Below are positions 19,201-29,213 of a stretch of 64,000 nucleotides of DNA, one piece after another. How positions within the stretch are numbered: position 1 is the first letter of the stretch; the number at the start of each line of letters is the position of its first letter. The notes under the pieces are model-generated. The model saw only the letters and a program-made list of their open reading frames with translations, was not told the origin of the DNA and did no database searches. The DNA is taken from the NCBI RefSeq assembly GCF_002159555.1, contig NZ_NFIV01000006.1, forward strand, positions 1 to 64,000, read 5' to 3'. The DNA is from Muribaculum sp. An289 (lineage in GTDB: Bacteria > Bacteroidota > Bacteroidia > Bacteroidales > UBA932). Both the position numbers and the translations under genes were made by a program.

Positions 19201-20565
19201 CTATTCGGAAACAGGCCGTATGGAAAGCCCGAAGTAGCGGCCGACTAAGTCTATGCGGTGGCCGAAACTGCTGAAACTCAGATAAGAAGACATCGTAGTG
19301 CTATATTCGTCAGGATTGGAGGTCCAATAATAACCGTAACGTTCCGTATCGTAGGACGTCTTGCTGTTGATGTAACCCGAAGCCGGCATGAAGATGGATT
19401 GTCCGCTCGGTCCGGTGAAGTTGTAACCAGCCTCTCCTTCAAGTTCCGTCCACTCCCATTCGCATTCGTCTATAAGTTCCTGCATTTCCGCCTTTGTAGG
19501 CATTCTCCAGGTGCCTCCCCAGTTTGCGGCAGCGGCATCATATTCCGGATTGCCGGATATGTCCGATATCGTCTTTTCGAAAGTCGTATTGTTTGCCATA
19601 CTGTATTCTTCTTTAGGCTCGGTTTCGCCCCATGCGAAATAATCTCCATATTCCCATGGGTTTTCAGCGCCTATGTTGCAGGTGGCCCATTTTACGCTGA
19701 GCCCGAGGTCTACCGAATCGTGCCCTTTGCTTACCGTCACCATGCATGTGGCTGTTTTGCCTCCATCGTCGGTGGTTACCGTGATAGTCGTCTCGCCTGC
19801 CGACACGGCCGTAACAAGGCCTGTCCCGTCTACGGTGGCTATGCCCGTATCGGCTGATGACCATTTGATTCCTTTGTCTGTAGCATCTTCAGGCAGGACA
19901 GTCTCCGTCAGCGTATGGGTTTCCCCTTCATTGAGCCTGAGTTCCGTAGGTTCGAGGGTTACGGATTCTACCGGAATGCCTGTCACCGAAATCCGGCTGG
20001 AAGCGGCCTTTCCGTCTACCATGGCAGTAATCTCCGCAGTCCCGATTGCAACTCCGGTAACCACGCCTTCTGAATCCACAGTTGCCACGCCGGTGTCGGA
20101 AGAAGCCCATTCGATGCTTTCATATTCCGCATCCTCCGGCTCGACCCTTACAGTGAGCTCCAATGTCTCCCCGATTTGCACTTCGGCTTCCGTAGGTTCG
20201 ACAATCACATTTTCCACACTCGTCCCGGGCACTGTTCCCTGCCCGTCCGTTACCGTGACCGTGCATGTGGCCGAAATGTCACCGCAGCCTGCCGTGATTT
20301 CGGCTTTCCCCGCCGAAAGCGCCGTCACTTCGCCGTCCTCCACTACGGCGACCTGTTCATCGGAACTGCTCCATACGAGTTCGTAATTCGCATTTTCCGG
20401 GGTCGCCGACACTTCGAGCAGGACTACGTCCCCGACATTGAGTTCCACTTCCGCTTTCCCGAAAGCCAGGCTTTCAAGTTCCGGTTTTACCGGCTCGTCC
20501 GGTTTGCACCCTGCCAGGCAAAGGGCAAGCATGGCCGACGAGGCAATGAAAAATGATGATTTCAT
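19201..20565 (-). CDS. Lipoprotein with three BIG2 domains and a C-terminal FISUMP-like domain
   Basis: 454 residues. Lipobox LAGC gives a lipid-anchored Cys20. Three bacterial Ig-like (BIG2) repeats follow: about 31-107, 116-195 and 199-280, each with the WSSSD/WASSDTGVATV core and an ITV-type end. From about 288 the sequence VDLGLSVKWATCNIGA, YGDYFAWGETEP and TWRMPTKAEMQELI marks the Fibrobacter-paralogous/DUF1566-like domain widespread on surfaces of gut Bacteroidetes. It is probably surface exposed and adhesive or glycan-binding; the ligand is unknown. Single gene with an unusual repeat-rich leader (20590-20770). Confidence 0.88.
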   Translation of the reverse strand: MKSSFFIASSAMLALCLAGCKPDEPVKPELESLAFGKAEVELNVGDVVLLEVSATPENANYELVWSSSDEQVAVVEDGEVTALSAGKAEITAGCGDISATCTVTVTDGQGTVPGTSVENVIVEPTEAEVQIGETLELTVRVEPEDAEYESIEWASSDTGVATVDSEGVVTGVAIGTAEITAMVDGKAASSRISVTGIPVESVTLEPTELRLNEGETHTLTETVLPEDATDKGIKWSSADTGIATVDGTGLVTAVSAGETTITVTTDDGGKTATCMVTVSKGHDSVDLGLSVKWATCNIGAENPWEYGDYFAWGETEPKEEYSMANNTTFEKTISDISGNPEYDAAAANWGGTWRMPTKAEMQELIDECEWEWTELEGEAGYNFTGPSGQSIFMPASGYINSKTSYDTERYGYYWTSNPDEYSTTMSSYLSFSSFGHRIDLVGRYFGLSIRPVSE

Positions 20566-22081: not shown

Positions 22082-23281
22082 ATGACAACGGTTAAAGTAA
22101 AATTCCGCCCGTCGACAGTTGTAAACCGTCCCGGCAGCATCATTTATCTCGTAACTCGCCACAGGGTCGTGCGCCAAATCACGAGCGATTGCAAGGTTTT
22201 CCCGGAAGAATGGGACGAAAGGCAATCGAAGGTAGTACTTGCCCATAAGGAACGCACTAATGCGATCCTGTCCGTGGCACACAGGCTTAGCAATGACATG
22301 GAGCATCTCAATGAGGTGATTGACAGACTGAACCACACTGAAACGGATTTTACCACGGATGATGTGGTGAGGTGTTTTTATGAGTCGGACACTAATCCGT
22401 CCCTTTTCAGGTTCATGGAAGATGTGATAACCCATCTCAAGCATCTTGGGCGGGAGAGGACGTCAGAGACCTATACTACTGCGCTCAGAAGTTTCATGCA
22501 TTTCAGAAACGGCGAAGATGTGTATCTGAATGAAATGGACTCGGAACTTATCATGGAGTACCAGGCCTATCTCAAGTCCCGGCATGTGTCCCTGAACACG
22601 ATTTCTTTCTATAACAGGATTCTCCGGGCTGTATACAACAGAGCCGTGGAAAAGGATCTGGCGGTACAGCGTTATCCTTTCAGGCATGTGTACACCGGGG
22701 TCTGCAAGACCGTGAAGCGTGCCATCCCCCTGGAGGCTATAAGGAGGATTAAGGAGCTCAGCCTGCCGCCTGATTCATCGCTGGACTTTGCGAGGAACAT
22801 GTTCCTGTTTTCATTCTATACCAGGGGAATGTCTTTCGTCGACATGGCCTATGCCAGGAAAACGGATCTTAAGAACGGGGTACTTTCGTATTGCCGGAGG
22901 AAGACCGGCCAGCGCCTGTACATCAGATGGGAAAAATGCATGCAGGATATCGTCGGAAAATATGCGGAAAACAATACGGAGTACCTGCTGCCGATTATTA
23001 AGAGGCCCGGTAATGAGCGGCGGCAGTACAGGAACACCCTGCGGCTTGTAAACAACAATCTGAAGATGGTGGCAATCATGGCGGACATTCAGATAAATCT
23101 TACGATGTATGTCAGCCGGCATTCATGGGCCAGCATAGCCCGCAGCCAGAATATCCCCTTGTCCATAATAAGCGAGGGAATGGGCCATGATTCGGAAACC
23201 ACGACACAGATTTATCTCGCCTCTCTGGACAACGCTTCCATCGACAATGCTAACGGACTGATTTTGAAAAAACTGCATTGA
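22082..23281 (+). CDS. Tyrosine recombinase, probable promoter invertase
   Basis: 399 residues, the length of Bacteroidales phage-integrase/Tsr-like recombinases. An N-terminal arm domain (1-90, beginning with a beta-type stretch and VFPEEWDERQ) and a SAM-like core-binding domain (about 105-195) precede the catalytic domain: Arg in FYTRGMSF, Lys in RRKTGQ, YVSRHSWAS (HxxR box with Tyr in the His place, as often in this family), GHDSETTTQIY with the nucleophilic Tyr. It ends 22 bp before paired recombinase-type sites and an invertible-looking promoter segment, so local inversion controlling the downstream fimbrial operon is the likely task. No other mobile-element genes accompany it. Confidence 0.9.
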   Translation: MTTVKVKFRPSTVVNRPGSIIYLVTRHRVVRQITSDCKVFPEEWDERQSKVVLAHKERTNAILSVAHRLSNDMEHLNEVIDRLNHTETDFTTDDVVRCFYESDTNPSLFRFMEDVITHLKHLGRERTSETYTTALRSFMHFRNGEDVYLNEMDSELIMEYQAYLKSRHVSLNTISFYNRILRAVYNRAVEKDLAVQRYPFRHVYTGVCKTVKRAIPLEAIRRIKELSLPPDSSLDFARNMFLFSFYTRGMSFVDMAYARKTDLKNGVLSYCRRKTGQRLYIRWEKCMQDIVGKYAENNTEYLLPIIKRPGNERRQYRNTLRLVNNNLKMVAIMADIQINLTMYVSRHSWASIARSQNIPLSIISEGMGHDSETTTQIYLASLDNASIDNANGLILKKLH

Positions 23282-23299
23282 ATGTGGGCGGCGCGATAT

Positions 23300-23316
23300 C
23301 TTTTACCAAGAGAAGG
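23300..23316 (+). repeat. Left outer recombinase-type site
   Basis: CTTTTACCAAGAGAAGG carries the 7-bp core TTACCAA (23303-23309) and the right arm GAGAAGG; its left arm is degenerate. It is spaced 21 bp (two helical turns) from the next site. Confidence 0.6.
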
Positions 23317-23340
23317 TCCCCTCTTACCAAGAGAAAGGCA
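23317..23340 (+). repeat. Left inner recombinase site (inverted repeat, IR-L)
   Basis: CTCTTACCAAGAGA (23321-23334) is the exact reverse complement of 23495-23508. Arms TCCCCTC and GAGAAAGG flank the asymmetric core TTACCAA (23324-23330). Confidence 0.75.
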
Positions 23341-23498
23341 GAAAAAAGAAGAGTGTTGATAATCAGTAATTTTATATTCAGACTGTTATGCAAATATGCC
23401 GTTTCGCAGAACAGTTTGAATTTTTTTTGAATTTTTTTTGAACGAAATTTTTGGTTTTTTAGTTTTTATATAATACTTTTGCGCGGTAAATCCCTCTC
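23331..23498. mobile_element. Probable invertible promoter segment (~168 bp)
   Basis: Bounded by the same 7-bp core in opposite orientations, TTACCAA on the left and TTGGTAA on the right, within longer inverted arms, which is the geometry needed for inversion by a tyrosine recombinase. The recombinase gene is adjacent and a promoter inside points outward to the fimbrial operon. The segment is very AT-rich with two TTTGAATTTTT units near 23415-23436. In the flipped state this promoter would face the recombinase gene. Confidence 0.75.
23450..23481 (+). promoter_or_regulatory. Fimbrial operon promoter inside the invertible segment (ON orientation)
   Basis: -33 TTTG (23450-23453), 20-bp spacer, -7 TACTTTTG (23474-23481). 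It reads across the right inverted repeat into the gene at 23531. Confidence 0.8.
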
Positions 23499-23516
23499 TT
23501 GGTAAGAGAGGGATTT
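23488..23516. repeat. Right recombinase site (IR-R), also a perfect hairpin
   Basis: Arms AAATCCCTCTC and GAGAGGGATTT are perfect inverted repeats around the 7-bp core TTGGTAA (23499-23505), an ideal tyrosine-recombinase core layout. In the present orientation it lies at the very 5' end of the operon mRNA and would fold as a 13-bp stem with loop GGT. Confidence 0.75.
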
Positions 23517-23530
23517 AATAGGAATAGGAG

Positions 23531-24805
23531 ATGCGTATTAAGATTTTCATGTTGTCCGTGTTCATTTTGTTTGGATGCGGACAGGCGTTCAGTCAGGAAA
23601 TCCGTAAGGAAATTTTCTTGGATTTCCGTATCAACAAAGGAACACTGGACACGACATACATGGACAATGCCGAGCGTTTGTCCGAGGTAATATCGTTTTT
23701 GGAGGAATTCAAAAGCGATTCGGCCTTTGATATGATAGAGGTTTCGTTCTGCGGCTCCGCTTCGCCGGAGGGAACCATCGCCATCAACAGGAGGTTGTCC
23801 GGGGAGCGCAGCAAGGCTCTGGAAGAATATGTCCGCAGCCATATTTCTTTGCCGGACAGTATCATAGTCAGGTGCAAGGACGTTTTCGCATGGGACCGTC
23901 TGATACGGCTGGTGGAAGAATCCGACATGCAGGACAAAGACGAGGTGCTGAACATATTGCTCAATGTGCCCGAATACACCTATAATAATAACGGCGCCAT
24001 AACGGACAGCCGCAAGAAGCATTTGATGGATTTGCAGGGAGGCCGTGCATGGCAATATATGCTGAAGCATTTCTATCCGCATATCCGTAATGCCAGTGTC
24101 GTATTCATTATCAAAAAGGAGCCGCCTGTAGAGAAACCGGAAGGGCTTCAGGCGATGGAGACCCTTGAGGAGCAGAGACCGGCCTTCCTTGCCGGCGCAA
24201 TCCAGCAGAGGCCTCAGGTAGCGCAGGGACCCGAAAAGCCTTTCTACATGGCAGTAAAGACGAACATGCTTTACGATGTGGCTGCCGTCCCTAATGTCGG
24301 AGTGGAGTTCTACCTTGGAAAGAACTGGTCCATAACCGGCAACTGGATGTACGGCTGGTGGAACTCCGACAGGCATCACAGGTTCTGGCGTATTTACGGC
24401 GGCGAGCTCGGTGTACGCAAGTGGTTCGGCAAAAAGGCTGATGAAAAGCCTCTTACAGGCCATCATCTCGGTGTTTACGGACAGGTGTTCACGTACGACT
24501 TCGAATGGGGCGGCAAAGGATATATGGGAGGTGCGCCTGGCAAAATGCTGTGGGACACGCCTAATTATGCGGTAGGTATCGAATACGGCTACTCGCTTCC
24601 GATAGCCCGGAGGCTCAATATAGATTTTACTATAGGTTTAGGCTACTGGGGAGGAAGATATTACGTCTACACACCTCATGACGGCCATTATGTGTGGGAG
24701 GCGACGAAGAACCGCCACTGGTTCGGTCCGACAAAGGCGGAAATCTCTCTCGTATGGCTGCTCGGCCGCGGCAATGTCAACAACATGAAGGGAGGCGCGA
24801 AATGA
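23531..24805 (+). CDS. OmpA-like/DUF3575 outer-membrane protein of a fimbrial operon
   Basis: 424 residues with a signal peptide (1-21, ending AFS). The N-terminal half (about 25-110) resembles an OmpA-like fold: FRINKGTLDTTYMDN, then FCGSASPEG and NRRLSGERSKALEEY. From about 240 the sequence KPFYMAVKTNMLYDVAAVPNVGVEFYLGKNWSITGNWMYGWW is the DUF3575 barrel signature, ending in alternating aromatic strands. Proteins of this type head fimbrial operons of Bacteroidales and may help anchor or assemble the fimbria in the outer membrane; this role is inferred. First gene after the invertible promoter; it overlaps the next gene by 4 bp (ATGA). Confidence 0.85.
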   Translation: MRIKIFMLSVFILFGCGQAFSQEIRKEIFLDFRINKGTLDTTYMDNAERLSEVISFLEEFKSDSAFDMIEVSFCGSASPEGTIAINRRLSGERSKALEEYVRSHISLPDSIIVRCKDVFAWDRLIRLVEESDMQDKDEVLNILLNVPEYTYNNNGAITDSRKKHLMDLQGGRAWQYMLKHFYPHIRNASVVFIIKKEPPVEKPEGLQAMETLEEQRPAFLAGAIQQRPQVAQGPEKPFYMAVKTNMLYDVAAVPNVGVEFYLGKNWSITGNWMYGWWNSDRHHRFWRIYGGELGVRKWFGKKADEKPLTGHHLGVYGQVFTYDFEWGGKGYMGGAPGKMLWDTPNYAVGIEYGYSLPIARRLNIDFTIGLGYWGGRYYVYTPHDGHYVWEATKNRHWFGPTKAEISLVWLLGRGNVNNMKGGAK

Positions 24806-25848
24806 GAAAATCGATGAAAATACTATTGGTGGCCGCGCTTGCGGGAACGCCAGCCCTGCTTTCTTCCTGCGTGCATAAGGAATTGTGCTTCGATCATGAG
24901 CCTCACGCCCCTAAATCCGAGGTGACCATAGAGGCCGAGTACGAAAGGGAATGGCAGTATACCTACGAAGGCGGTACGGATTGGGAGGCCTATTCCGGCT
25001 GGAGGCAGGATTTCGGAATGACTTACGATTCGCTGCGCCCGGAGATTCCGAGCGGCCTGCGTGTGGTAGTATATAACTCCGATGGTACGAACAACATGCT
25101 TAACATTGCCCCCGAAGGCGAAACCGTAAGGATGATACCAGGGGAACATTCGATGTTGTTCTATAATAATGATACCGAATACATAGTCTTCGATGACATG
25201 CAGTCTTTCGTTTCGGCACGCGCTACGACGAGGACACGTACCCGCTCGTCCTACATGGGCAATCCGTTTGCGGAGGAGGAATATAATGAAAATACCGTAA
25301 ATGCCCCTGATATGCTTTACGGCAATTATGAGGAGTCATATGTCGCCGAGCTTACGATGGAACCCGACATAATGCCTGTCACCATGCATCCGTTGGTATT
25401 CACATATCTCGTGCGCTACGAGTTCAGCCACGGTCTGGAGTATGTGGCCCTGGCGCGCGGAGCGCTGTCCGGCATGGCGGAATCGGTCTGGCTGAACAGC
25501 GGGCATACCTCCGAAGAACCGGCTACCATATTGTACGACTGTACGATTGAGGATTTCGGGACACAGGCTCTTGTACGTTCATTCGGAGTTCCGGATTTTC
25601 CTAACGAGCATTATTCGGTGAAGGCTCCGCATACCTACGCCCTGAACCTGGAAGTAAGGCTCAGAAACGGCAATATCAAGTCCTTCGATTTCGATGTCAC
25701 GGATCAGGTGGCTTTGCAGCCTCAGGGAGGTGTCATCATAGTGGACGGCATCGAGATATCGGATGAAGAAGGCTGGTCGGGCGGTTCTGGTTTCGACGTG
25801 GATATCGATGACTGGGGCGAATACGAAGACGTAGAGATACCGTTTTAA
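24802..25848 (+). CDS. DUF5119 lipoprotein, Mfa2/FimB-like fimbrial anchor candidate
   Basis: 348 residues. The start at 24802 (ATGA overlap) is preferred over an in-frame codon at 24694, which lies inside the preceding gene. Lipobox LSSC anchors the protein at Cys22. The run PSGLRVVVYNSDG, IAPEGETVRMIPGEHSMLFYNNDTEYIVF and the long beta-rich remainder match DUF5119, a family placed in fimbrial operons and resembling Mfa2/FimB anchors. An acidic tail (DVDIDDWGEYEDVEIPF) echoes the DWGEFGDD end of the fimbrillin that follows. It probably terminates or anchors the fimbria at the outer membrane. Confidence 0.8.
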   Translation: MRKSMKILLVAALAGTPALLSSCVHKELCFDHEPHAPKSEVTIEAEYEREWQYTYEGGTDWEAYSGWRQDFGMTYDSLRPEIPSGLRVVVYNSDGTNNMLNIAPEGETVRMIPGEHSMLFYNNDTEYIVFDDMQSFVSARATTRTRTRSSYMGNPFAEEEYNENTVNAPDMLYGNYEESYVAELTMEPDIMPVTMHPLVFTYLVRYEFSHGLEYVALARGALSGMAESVWLNSGHTSEEPATILYDCTIEDFGTQALVRSFGVPDFPNEHYSVKAPHTYALNLEVRLRNGNIKSFDFDVTDQVALQPQGGVIIVDGIEISDEEGWSGGSGFDVDIDDWGEYEDVEIPF

Positions 25849-25927
25849 TAACCGGAAAAATACGAATAAAGGAAAACAGGACAATTAATTTTATTACTCA
25901 TATTTTTAACCTTTTAATTTTTTTAAG

Positions 25928-26944
25928 ATGAAAAAAATCTTTTTTATTGGTTTGGCTGCCGTAGCCGTGTTGGCAAGTTGCAGCAAGGACGAGACAATTG
26001 AAGTGGCCGGCAAGCAGGCTATTTCATTCGACAGTTTCGTGAATCTCAGCACAAAAGGTGCTGCTGACGACCTTACTTCCGAGACTTTCCGTTCCTTCCA
26101 GGTTTGGGGTCTGATGGAGAAAGACGGCCAGACAGGTACTCCGTTCGTAGGAACTGAAGTAAAAAGCGCAGACGGTAATTCTTGGAGTTATGACACTCCT
26201 GTATACTGGGAAAACGGTTACAAGTACAGTTTCGTAGCTGTCGCTCCATCCAATAGCGAAGCATGGACACTGAACGCTCCTGAAACTGTAGGTACTTGGG
26301 GATCAATCAACTTTACAAACGGTGAAGGTACTACCGATTTGATTTATGACGTTGACGGTACATACGCTGTTTCTCCTGTAGAACTTTCAGAGAACCAGTG
26401 CCCTGCGGCTATCAGCTTTACGTTCAACCACCTGTTGTCACGCGTAAGGTTTACATTCACCAACTCAATGGCCGATAACTCTACACTCAACGTTACGGAT
26501 GTGAAGGTACTCAATGCGAACAACAAGGCTGTTGCAACTCTTGGTGAAACGGCTACCTGGGCTTTGGCTGGTGACAATGCCGTGACCGAACTTGCTTTCG
26601 GCAATGTAATCCTGGATGAGGAAGCTGTGAATTTTGCTTCTGGCGAGACCAAGGCGACAGATCACAAGTATATGATTCCTGTGATGTCAGAGGGTCAGAC
26701 ATATCAGCTTTCCTTCAAAATCACCCGTGTTCACAGTGGAGTTACCGATGAGTACAATCATATCGTAAATCTTCCGGCTGTTACATGGGAAGCAGGCAGC
26801 AGCTACTCCTTCAACGCAACCATCAGTGCTGCTAACGTAAACCCTGACACTCAGCTCTGCCCTATCGAGTTCAAAGCAAGTGTTGAGGATTGGGGAGAAT
26901 TCGGTGATGATATCAAAATTCCTGATTCCGAGGATGGCGAATAA
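25928..26944 (+). CDS. Fimbrillin family major subunit (Mfa1/FimA-like)
   Basis: 338 residues. Lipobox LASC puts the lipid at Cys19, as in type V fimbrial precursors that mature by Rgp-type proteolysis. After KQAISFDSFVNLSTKGAADDL comes the two-domain fimbrillin fold: VYWENGYKYSFVAVAP (first domain), ISFTFNHLLSRVRFTFTN (second-domain opening) and WEAGSSYSFNATISA near the end, then a conserved acidic VEDWGEFGDD strand, the probable donor strand. The AT content and T-ending codons are higher than in flanking genes, suggesting transfer or high expression. It is probably the main fibre component of the phase-variable fimbria. Confidence 0.88.
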   Translation: MKKIFFIGLAAVAVLASCSKDETIEVAGKQAISFDSFVNLSTKGAADDLTSETFRSFQVWGLMEKDGQTGTPFVGTEVKSADGNSWSYDTPVYWENGYKYSFVAVAPSNSEAWTLNAPETVGTWGSINFTNGEGTTDLIYDVDGTYAVSPVELSENQCPAAISFTFNHLLSRVRFTFTNSMADNSTLNVTDVKVLNANNKAVATLGETATWALAGDNAVTELAFGNVILDEEAVNFASGETKATDHKYMIPVMSEGQTYQLSFKITRVHSGVTDEYNHIVNLPAVTWEAGSSYSFNATISAANVNPDTQLCPIEFKASVEDWGEFGDDIKIPDSEDGE

Positions 26945-26998
26945 TACATGTTCCGGAATGTAAATTCCAGAATACCATTAAAAAACCACAAATAATAG

Positions 26999-27028
26999 GG
27001 TATAAGGGGTTGAATGTCCCCTTATACC
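26999..27028 (+). promoter_or_regulatory. Intercistronic hairpin between fimbrillin and tip-like gene
   Basis: Perfect 11-bp stem GGTATAAGGGG/CCCCTTATACC with an 8-base loop and no T-tract. It could stabilise the fimbrillin mRNA end or lower expression of the next gene. Confidence 0.6.
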
Positions 27029-27089
27029 TGCAAATGGCAGAAGATGCGTTTTTGCCTCATTTTCAGTTGAATTCAAAATTCGAAAGAAT

Positions 27090-29213
27090 ATGAAAGGGTT
27101 TAAAGGTTTTCATCGTTTTCCGATATCGGGCATGGCCGCGGTACTGTTTTCATGCCTGCTCGTGTTGTCGTGCAGCGATGATATTATCGAAAGCAGCAAG
27201 GACAGGGTCGGGAAGCACAGCGACAATATCTGTTTCGGGATTTCCCCGGCTGATGAGGACTGGACGAAAGCCTCTGCCGGTACAGGGGCGGCCAGTGTGA
27301 AGGATACGGAGTATTATGTCCTGCGTGCGGAAAACAGTTCCGATACGCTTTGCCTCCGTGCAACGGTTACTGATGGAATATCGGTATCGGCTTTCGGGAA
27401 TGATGCTCCGGAGACACGTTCGGCTCAGGTCGTTTCACTTGAGACTTACGGCTCTTTCAGGGTGCAGGCGCATTGTACCGATGCCGGCGTGCCTGTCGGT
27501 GTTTTCTATATGGACGATGTGGCGGACAATCTGAACGCGGGTGTCTGGAGTACCCGGAATGTGTACTATTGGCCGGGTGAGGACCGTACTCTGCGTTTCT
27601 TCGCTTGGGCTCCTGTCGATGCGGCCTTTACTTCCGTTCCCGAATCCCCGGAAAATACCGTGCTGGGCTATGAAGTTCCGCAGGCTGTGGCCGACCAGAA
27701 GGATGTGGTTGTGGCCGTGACTTCCGATATACCCGGAAACAGCAATACCGAAGTGCCTCTTGGTTTCAGGCATATTTGCAGCGCAATCAGATTCGAATTC
27801 GGCCGCGAGATGCAGCCAGGGACTATAAAGAGCGTGGAATTAAAGAATGTAAAATATGCGGGGTCTTACGATATGGCCTCGGATACATGGGCTCTGAATG
27901 ACGGCGTAGCCTCTTTCAAGCAGGATTTGGGGCTTCCCACTACCGGCAATGAGCCCGACGACAGCCCTCTTACCAAGCCTGAAGGCACTTTCATGATGGT
28001 TCCTCAGACCCTGCCTGACGGTGCCGAAGTCGAGGTGGTTTTCGTTGACGGCGTGACCGGCCAGGAGCGCGAACCGATGACGGTTTCCATTGCGGGCTCC
28101 CGCTGGCCCCAGGGCATGACCGTAACCTACAAACTCTCCATTACGCCGGAGTATGACCTTGAATTTACTTCGGAGCCGGAAATCCAGGATGCTCACTATG
28201 TGATTTATCCTATCAATATCAAGGCCGGTAATATACCGGGTGGCTGGACTCTGACTTCTACAGACCCTTCGGTAACCCTCCGTACTGAACATACAGTCCT
28301 TACCCGTCGTGGTTTTTGGATTGAGCGCGACAGGGGAGGGGCCTCCATAAGCAGTACTGCCGTAGGCGACAATATTACCGTATTGGCTTTTCTTGAGGAG
28401 AACGTGGGCGAGACTACCCGTGAAGTCAATCTCGAACTTCGTCCTACGAACATGCCGAATGCCATTCCTCGTATATTCACAATCTCCCAACTCTGCCCGA
28501 GCTGGAACGGTGACCTCGGCTGCGAGCGAATCGAGGACGCCGACTATCCTTGGGGATTCATGTGGCCGGATGGAATGAAGATAACTTATAATATGCGTAA
28601 TGCAGGCTTGCTTGATTTAATAAAGAATGCACTTCTTAATGCATACCTCTCATGGTTTACGGATTATAACAATTTTGTTACAAAAGAAACCTGGGCACTG
28701 TCTATTACATCAGTCACTATTAATTTCGACGCAGTCCCTCAGGTGCTTGTAGCTACAAGTGAAGATGATGGGAAGAGAAATACGGATGAACTCTATAACT
28801 TCAATGGAATAAGCGATGTGGCTACGCTGATGAGTATCCTTGAAGATTGGGGCGGGACGACAACCGATGTCCTGCCTTTGAATCCTGAAGAATTCGCCGC
28901 CCGTGCCTGTGTTATGAAGAATAAGTTTGGTGTAACGATAGAATCAAGTGGACTAGGGAGTGAAACAATAGAGGTGCCGGTTCTTGCTGAAGAAGACCTT
29001 GTTTGGTATCTCCCTTCAAAAAACGAGGCGTCGAGGATGCAGGATACAGGCGAATATGCTTTGGACGGTATCTATTGGACTTCTACAAATTATGTTGCTG
29101 AAGATGAGCATAATGAGAATGCATATATATATACTGCCGGAGGGTCGACTTCAGTCGAAAAACGTAATGTATACCATCATGTCCGCGCGGTACGTAAAAA
29201 GCCTATTCCTTAA
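27090..29213 (+). CDS. Large fimbrillin-like tip protein with C-terminal FISUMP-like domain
   Basis: 707 residues. The signal ends in lipobox VLSC (Cys28). The N-terminal half (about 45-350) follows the fimbrillin plan: a YYWPGEDRTLRFFAWAP strand, GFRHICSAIRFEFG, then MTVTYKLSI. A middle beta-rich region (about 360-480) precedes a C-terminal block, LVWYLPSKNEAS, YWTSTNY and VRAVRK, that resembles FISUMP/DUF1566-type domains. It is about twice the length of the major subunit and last in the operon, which fits a tip or adhesin subunit (FimE/Mfa5-like); this is inferred. From about 28590 the DNA turns AT-rich, suggesting a C-terminal swap. Confidence 0.78.
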   Translation: MKGFKGFHRFPISGMAAVLFSCLLVLSCSDDIIESSKDRVGKHSDNICFGISPADEDWTKASAGTGAASVKDTEYYVLRAENSSDTLCLRATVTDGISVSAFGNDAPETRSAQVVSLETYGSFRVQAHCTDAGVPVGVFYMDDVADNLNAGVWSTRNVYYWPGEDRTLRFFAWAPVDAAFTSVPESPENTVLGYEVPQAVADQKDVVVAVTSDIPGNSNTEVPLGFRHICSAIRFEFGREMQPGTIKSVELKNVKYAGSYDMASDTWALNDGVASFKQDLGLPTTGNEPDDSPLTKPEGTFMMVPQTLPDGAEVEVVFVDGVTGQEREPMTVSIAGSRWPQGMTVTYKLSITPEYDLEFTSEPEIQDAHYVIYPINIKAGNIPGGWTLTSTDPSVTLRTEHTVLTRRGFWIERDRGGASISSTAVGDNITVLAFLEENVGETTREVNLELRPTNMPNAIPRIFTISQLCPSWNGDLGCERIEDADYPWGFMWPDGMKITYNMRNAGLLDLIKNALLNAYLSWFTDYNNFVTKETWALSITSVTINFDAVPQVLVATSEDDGKRNTDELYNFNGISDVATLMSILEDWGGTTTDVLPLNPEEFAARACVMKNKFGVTIESSGLGSETIEVPVLAEEDLVWYLPSKNEASRMQDTGEYALDGIYWTSTNYVAEDEHNENAYIYTAGGSTSVEKRNVYHHVRAVRKKPIP

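Follow-up and report, generated by a model that had tools for sequence, protein, structure and literature searches.

A type V (Mfa/FimA-like) fimbrial operon of Muribaculum sp. An289 is very probably controlled by a local inverton, in which a neighboring tyrosine recombinase would flip a short segment carrying the promoter. This reading was obtained from the sequence of the window, a stretch of 64,000 nucleotides (contig NZ_NFIV01000006.1, positions 1 to 64,000), and from comparison with related loci. The features of the locus are as follows.

22082-23281, + strand: tyrosine recombinase of 399 aa, probable local invertase (Pfam and catalytic residues)
23300-23312, + strand: extra copy of the left site, CTTTTACCAAGAG, with one mismatch and the spacer ACC of the left site
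23321-23333, + strand: putative left recombination site CTCTT-ACC-AAGAG (CTCTTACCAAGAG)
23334-23495, + strand: candidate invertible segment with the promoter, 162 bp between the 13-bp sites, ON as assembled
23450-23453, + strand: -33 element TTTG
23474-23481, + strand: -7 element TACTTTTG; its first base is 22 nt from the edge of the right site
23487-23517, + strand: hairpin enclosing the right site, with a perfect 14-bp stem and a 3-nt loop, close to where the transcript is predicted to start
23496-23508, - strand: putative right recombination site, spacer GGT, reverse complement of the left site
23531-24805, + strand: DUF3575 protein, first gene of the operon (PF12099, 1.3e-38)
24802-25848, + strand: DUF5119 lipoprotein-like protein (PF17145, 8.3e-36)
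25928-26944, + strand: fimbrillin-like protein of 338 aa (PF13149 Mfa_like_1, 1.4e-22)
27090-29213, + strand: fimbrillin-like protein of 707 aa with a long C-terminal extension (PF13149 Mfa_like_1, 1e-18, residues 141-365)

Organization of the locus

Pfam matches of the recombinase comprised a SAM-like domain (PF13102, 1e-19), Phage_integrase (PF00589, 2.6e-6) and a borderline Arm-DNA-bind_5 domain, and its only sequence match in the PDB was a XerC-like recombinase. R248, K274, R346, H369 and Y378 were invariant in 81 of 81 aligned recombinases and Y343 was conserved in 80 of 81, in an alignment drawn from relatives that include the best 80 of 263 recombinase matches; their catalytic role is assigned by what is established for the family. 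By its domains and residues, the product is an intact tyrosine recombinase.

With two PF13149 proteins, a DUF5119 protein and a DUF3575 protein, the genes at 23531-29213 constitute a predicted operon of the type V fimbriae-like (Mfa/FimA-like) kind. The earlier note had called the locus a phase-variable fimbrial operon of four genes. The fimbrial label and the gene content agree with the Pfam results, and phase variation itself is predicted from the sequence; the end at 26944 had to be moved, as the fourth gene is 27090-29213. The DUF5119 gene likely starts at ATG 24802 rather than at GTG 24694. Judging from gene order and length, which permit a guess, the 338-aa protein is probably a stalk or anchor pilin and the 707-aa protein probably a tip pilin. 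On the minus strand, at 19201-20565, a lipoprotein-like gene encodes three group-2 bacterial Ig-like (Big_2) domains.

The promoter elements, recognized from the sequence and the Bacteroidetes consensus quoted in PMC8748976, are separated by 20 nt and face the ORF that begins at 23531. They stand where the earlier note had placed a Bacteroidetes promoter, between the sites and facing the fimbrial operon, and the fit is a textbook one.

Putative recombination sites and predicted inversion

Two 7-bp cores in opposite orientation, TTACCAA (23324-23330) and TTGGTAA (23499-23505), had been reported within longer arms. These coordinates are exact, and so is the distance of 168 bp between the cores; a third copy at 23300-23312, direct to the first left site and 21 bp upstream of it, had been overlooked, which brings the site copies to three. 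The longer arms extend over 17 bp (23318-23334 and 23495-23511) and are 94% complementary. Since the sites are themselves palindromes of the form CTCTT-NNN-AAGAG, their direction comes from the 3-bp spacer alone. At 23321-23508, inverted sites with a matching crossover flank the promoter. A pattern search of the whole genome found no further occurrence of the exact 13-mer and no second paired copy of the core of 23321-23333; the sole other site within one mismatch was single, unpaired and on a different contig. This rarity, and the recurrence of inverted pairs with matched spacers in related loci (see below), put the arrangement beyond chance.

In the proposed switch, the recombinase would bind both sites (23321-23333 and 23496-23508) through their palindromic arms and carry out strand exchange across the TTNNNAA core. 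The spacers of the two sites are oppositely directed, so the outcome would be inversion of the 162-bp segment. The An289 assembly contains one orientation, ON, in which the promoter at 23450-23481 would read into the operon. In the OFF orientation it would face left, in antisense to the gene of the recombinase, and leave the operon without a recognizable promoter. We infer that the recombinase acts on these sites, that the segment flips in living An289 cells and that fimbriae follow.

Site pairs and spacers in related loci

Related loci were compared in a set of 82, made up of the best 80 of 263 recombinase relatives from a contig scan and two copies in the An289 genome. An inverted pair of CTCTT-NNN-AAGAG-like sites followed the recombinase in 53 of these, a list partly selected for matching, as it allowed at most 2 arm mismatches and at most 1 difference between sites. 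The distance between the two sites was 165-216 bp in 51 of the 53 loci and 429 and 419 bp in the other two. Of the 29 loci that lacked a pair, nine did so because the contig ends less than 200 bp after the gene. In most of dozens of loci, about 20-40 bp separate the recombinase stop from the left site.

A further test required exact arms and ignored the spacer. It gave 48 pairs in 43 loci, and the spacers were reverse-complementary within the locus in 48 of 48, although these are not 48 independent events, since loci are related and some contain tandem copies. The spacer varies between loci, with 18 different left spacers among the 48 pairs. The expected number of matches is 0.75 if spacers are uniform, and about 9% would match if they were drawn from pooled spacer frequencies. 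A spacer-blind pattern search of whole genomes yielded 21 distinct pairs, 20 with matched inverted spacers, and the reversed control pattern had no match in the same search. The one exception is locus L129 (G030:C27:16319-16521), where the spacers are direct (left AAT, right reads ATT) although the flanks are inverted. Strand exchange by tyrosine recombinases needs matching inverted spacers, and the 48 of 48 therefore fits recombination sites. The pairing of invertase and sites, an inference of the earlier note, gains strong support from arms conserved across Bacteroidales, spacers that co-vary and segments flipped between species.

Tandem left copies with identical spacers were present in five other loci, and L065 has a 22-bp extra copy that is absent from its near-identical relatives L092 and L073. 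Another, conserved motif, TGTTKAGCAAAA, was found in relatives (L009-L088), both within the segment and some 20 nt upstream of the left site. Flipped loci, L019 and L053 among them, show it in mirror image; the motif moves with the segment. It occurred 86 times against 5 expected; as the motif was picked after reading some loci, this enrichment is descriptive, and the constancy of position carries more weight. TGTTKAGCAAAA may be an arm-type site or a site for an accessory protein. At the An289 locus it is absent at -20, where the extra site copy 23300-23312 stands.

Orientation of the segment among species

A TAnnTTTG box lay 20-26 nt from exactly one segment edge in 40 of the 53 loci, against a chance expectation of 0.5 loci. 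By this box, 7 loci were called ON (facing the downstream genes), 33 OFF (facing the recombinase) and none both. The ON loci are the An289 locus at 22082, L011, L019, L045, L053, L077 and L078. OFF is also the commoner state of other invertible promoters (PMC4747536, PMC8748976), with which the present loci agree.

Local alignment of the segments with the sites removed, which is independent of the promoter call, gave 56 locus pairs in the same orientation and 31 in opposite orientation, the latter with scores up to 96 compared to a shuffle maximum of 34. Thirty of the 31 opposite pairs join an ON locus with an OFF locus or with a locus without a called box; in the exception, L052/L073, neither has a called box. 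L029 and L078 are a clear flipped example, with the spacer CGT in both.

The nearest relative of the An289 locus is L009, its sister in the tree at 100/96, which carries all four operon genes. The An289 segment fell below the threshold of the first alignment, and the following p-values come from a more permissive scoring. It matched the reverse complement of the L009 segment at p 0.0005 and the same orientation at p 0.18, which is one modest alignment; for the reverse complements of L085 and L010, the values were p<0.0005 and p 0.004. As L009 lacks a consensus -7 box, it is called OFF from the reversed modest alignment. Both orientations thus exist among relatives, between species, with one assembly per species. 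The search for flipped segments in other genomes, suggested in the earlier note, succeeded to this extent, including L009 on its modest alignment. That note had also counted against its reading a fixed orientation in all related genomes together with arms that are not conserved; what was observed is the reverse, conserved arms and segments flipped between species.

Alternative explanations

The segment may have been invertible formerly and now be locked ON, for example through an altered left region: An289 lacks TGTTKAGCAAAA at -20, which most relatives keep, and has an extra degenerate site at that position. We consider this unlikely in view of the perfect sites, the matched spacers and the intact recombinase with its catalytic residues. 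It is more improbable still that a real inverton is flipped mainly by a distant recombinase, a master invertase like Tsr19 or Tsr0667 of B. fragilis. Action at a distance is known (PMC4747536), about 15 matches to tyrosine recombinases occur in the An289 genome, and the product of a paralogous locus at C1:11973, with the same arms and the spacer TGG, is 55% identical to the 22082-23281 product. Against this, the close spacing of recombinase and sites is a fixed neighborhood in most of the loci, and the C1:11973 paralogue has a local site pair of its own.

It is hardly credible that the inverted repeats serve as an attenuator of transcription or as a recombinase operator instead of as recombination sites. 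The right site does form a strong hairpin close to the predicted start of transcription (z-score -4.65 for 23482-23600), and UTR repeats accompany lower expression at the Tsr19 EPS locus (PMC4747536), but this would leave unexplained the reverse-complementary spacers of every exact-arm pair and the flipped segments, in which the promoter always lies at a single edge. An attenuator-only reading was rejected on this spacer covariation and these flipped segments, while attenuation could exist alongside the inversion that we favor.

Relation to known systems

At fimS of E. coli, a tyrosine recombinase (FimB/FimE) flips a fimbrial promoter. That system has chaperone-usher pili, other repeats and other recombinases, and is an analogy only. 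For Bacteroidales, both the switching of surface proteins by local tyrosine invertases and the presence of fimbrillin genes next to invertons have been published (PMC12632263, PMC4747536, PMC11892184). In the Tsr-type systems of B. fragilis (Weinacht et al. 2004 via PMC12632263; Tsr19/BF2766, PMC4747536), a tyrosine recombinase gene adjoins an invertible promoter, as is proposed for An289. Surface structures are likewise under control at these loci, and the Tsr19 locus shares the extra repeat copies (PMC4747536); the likeness is one of arrangement. The phase-variable B. fragilis locus of 2004 includes an ORF matching a fimbrial N-terminus, according to PMC12632263. Tsr19 differs from the local model proposed here in having a distant promoter as a further target (PMC4747536). 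The Mpi capsule promoters of B. fragilis are invertible too, but through a serine recombinase acting globally (PMC4747536), whereas the product of 22082-23281 is a tyrosine recombinase.

In the hCom2 survey (PMC11892184), inverton groups 137, 112 and 122 show an enrichment of 'fimbrillin family protein' among the regulatable genes nearby, and site-specific integrases occur near group 137 and others. These invertons resemble the CTCTT-NNN-AAGAG locus in gene content. Local, fimbrillin-linked invertons of Bacteroidales are therefore a known kind, of which the An289 locus is a clear new example, and a well-anchored fimbrial phase switch is added from a little-studied genome. With a simple sequence rule (CTCTT-NNN-AAGAG, matched spacers and a -7 box 20-26 nt from one edge), an assembly by itself is enough to recognize such switches and to tell whether they are ON or OFF. 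The modularity described below, with the same recombinase and sites before BREX, restriction and helicase genes, is apparently less described.

Genes downstream of related switches

Among 48 downstream genes scanned, the module preceded DUF3575 proteins in 9 and SNF2/ResIII helicases in 9-10; other cargo included BrxC, type IIG restriction, DndD/PbeC-like, methyltransferase, SrfB, a kinase-FHA protein and a TonB receptor. The PADLOC helicase matches are partly generic, and only the specific identifications, BrxC (5e-241) and type IIG, are named with confidence. The module was observed before defense-type genes at L012:7017-10709, L034:6427-10236, L019:5299-7416, L024:6586-8046 and L029:6570-9818. 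The loci with BREX BrxC, type IIG, DndD/PbeC-like, methyltransferase and Snf2 helicase genes are candidates for phase-variable phage defense. The same module before defense genes suggests that adhesion and phage defense share a switch design in these bacteria.

As a tentative reading, which we hold to be possible and not the likelier case, these loci would form a modular, horizontally moving switch family with constant arms, one recombinase clade and a 3-bp spacer as the private address of each locus. If true, switches of fimbriae, BREX, restriction, kinase and receptor genes could coexist in a genome without cross-recombination. In the five genomes with at least two pairs, a sample too small for statistics, spacers differed between loci with one exception: in G030, whose family and genus comprise the same eight genomes, ATT is shared by locus C26 and by locus C27, the latter with AAT at the left and ATT at the right.

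The An289 genome contains a second recombinase-inverton-DUF3575 locus (G000:C1:11973-13408; L092, L115), in the OFF state and with the spacer TGG. Over 3 kb it is about 95.6% identical to L065 and L073, from Alistipes and Bacteroides MAGs, which suggests recent horizontal transfer.
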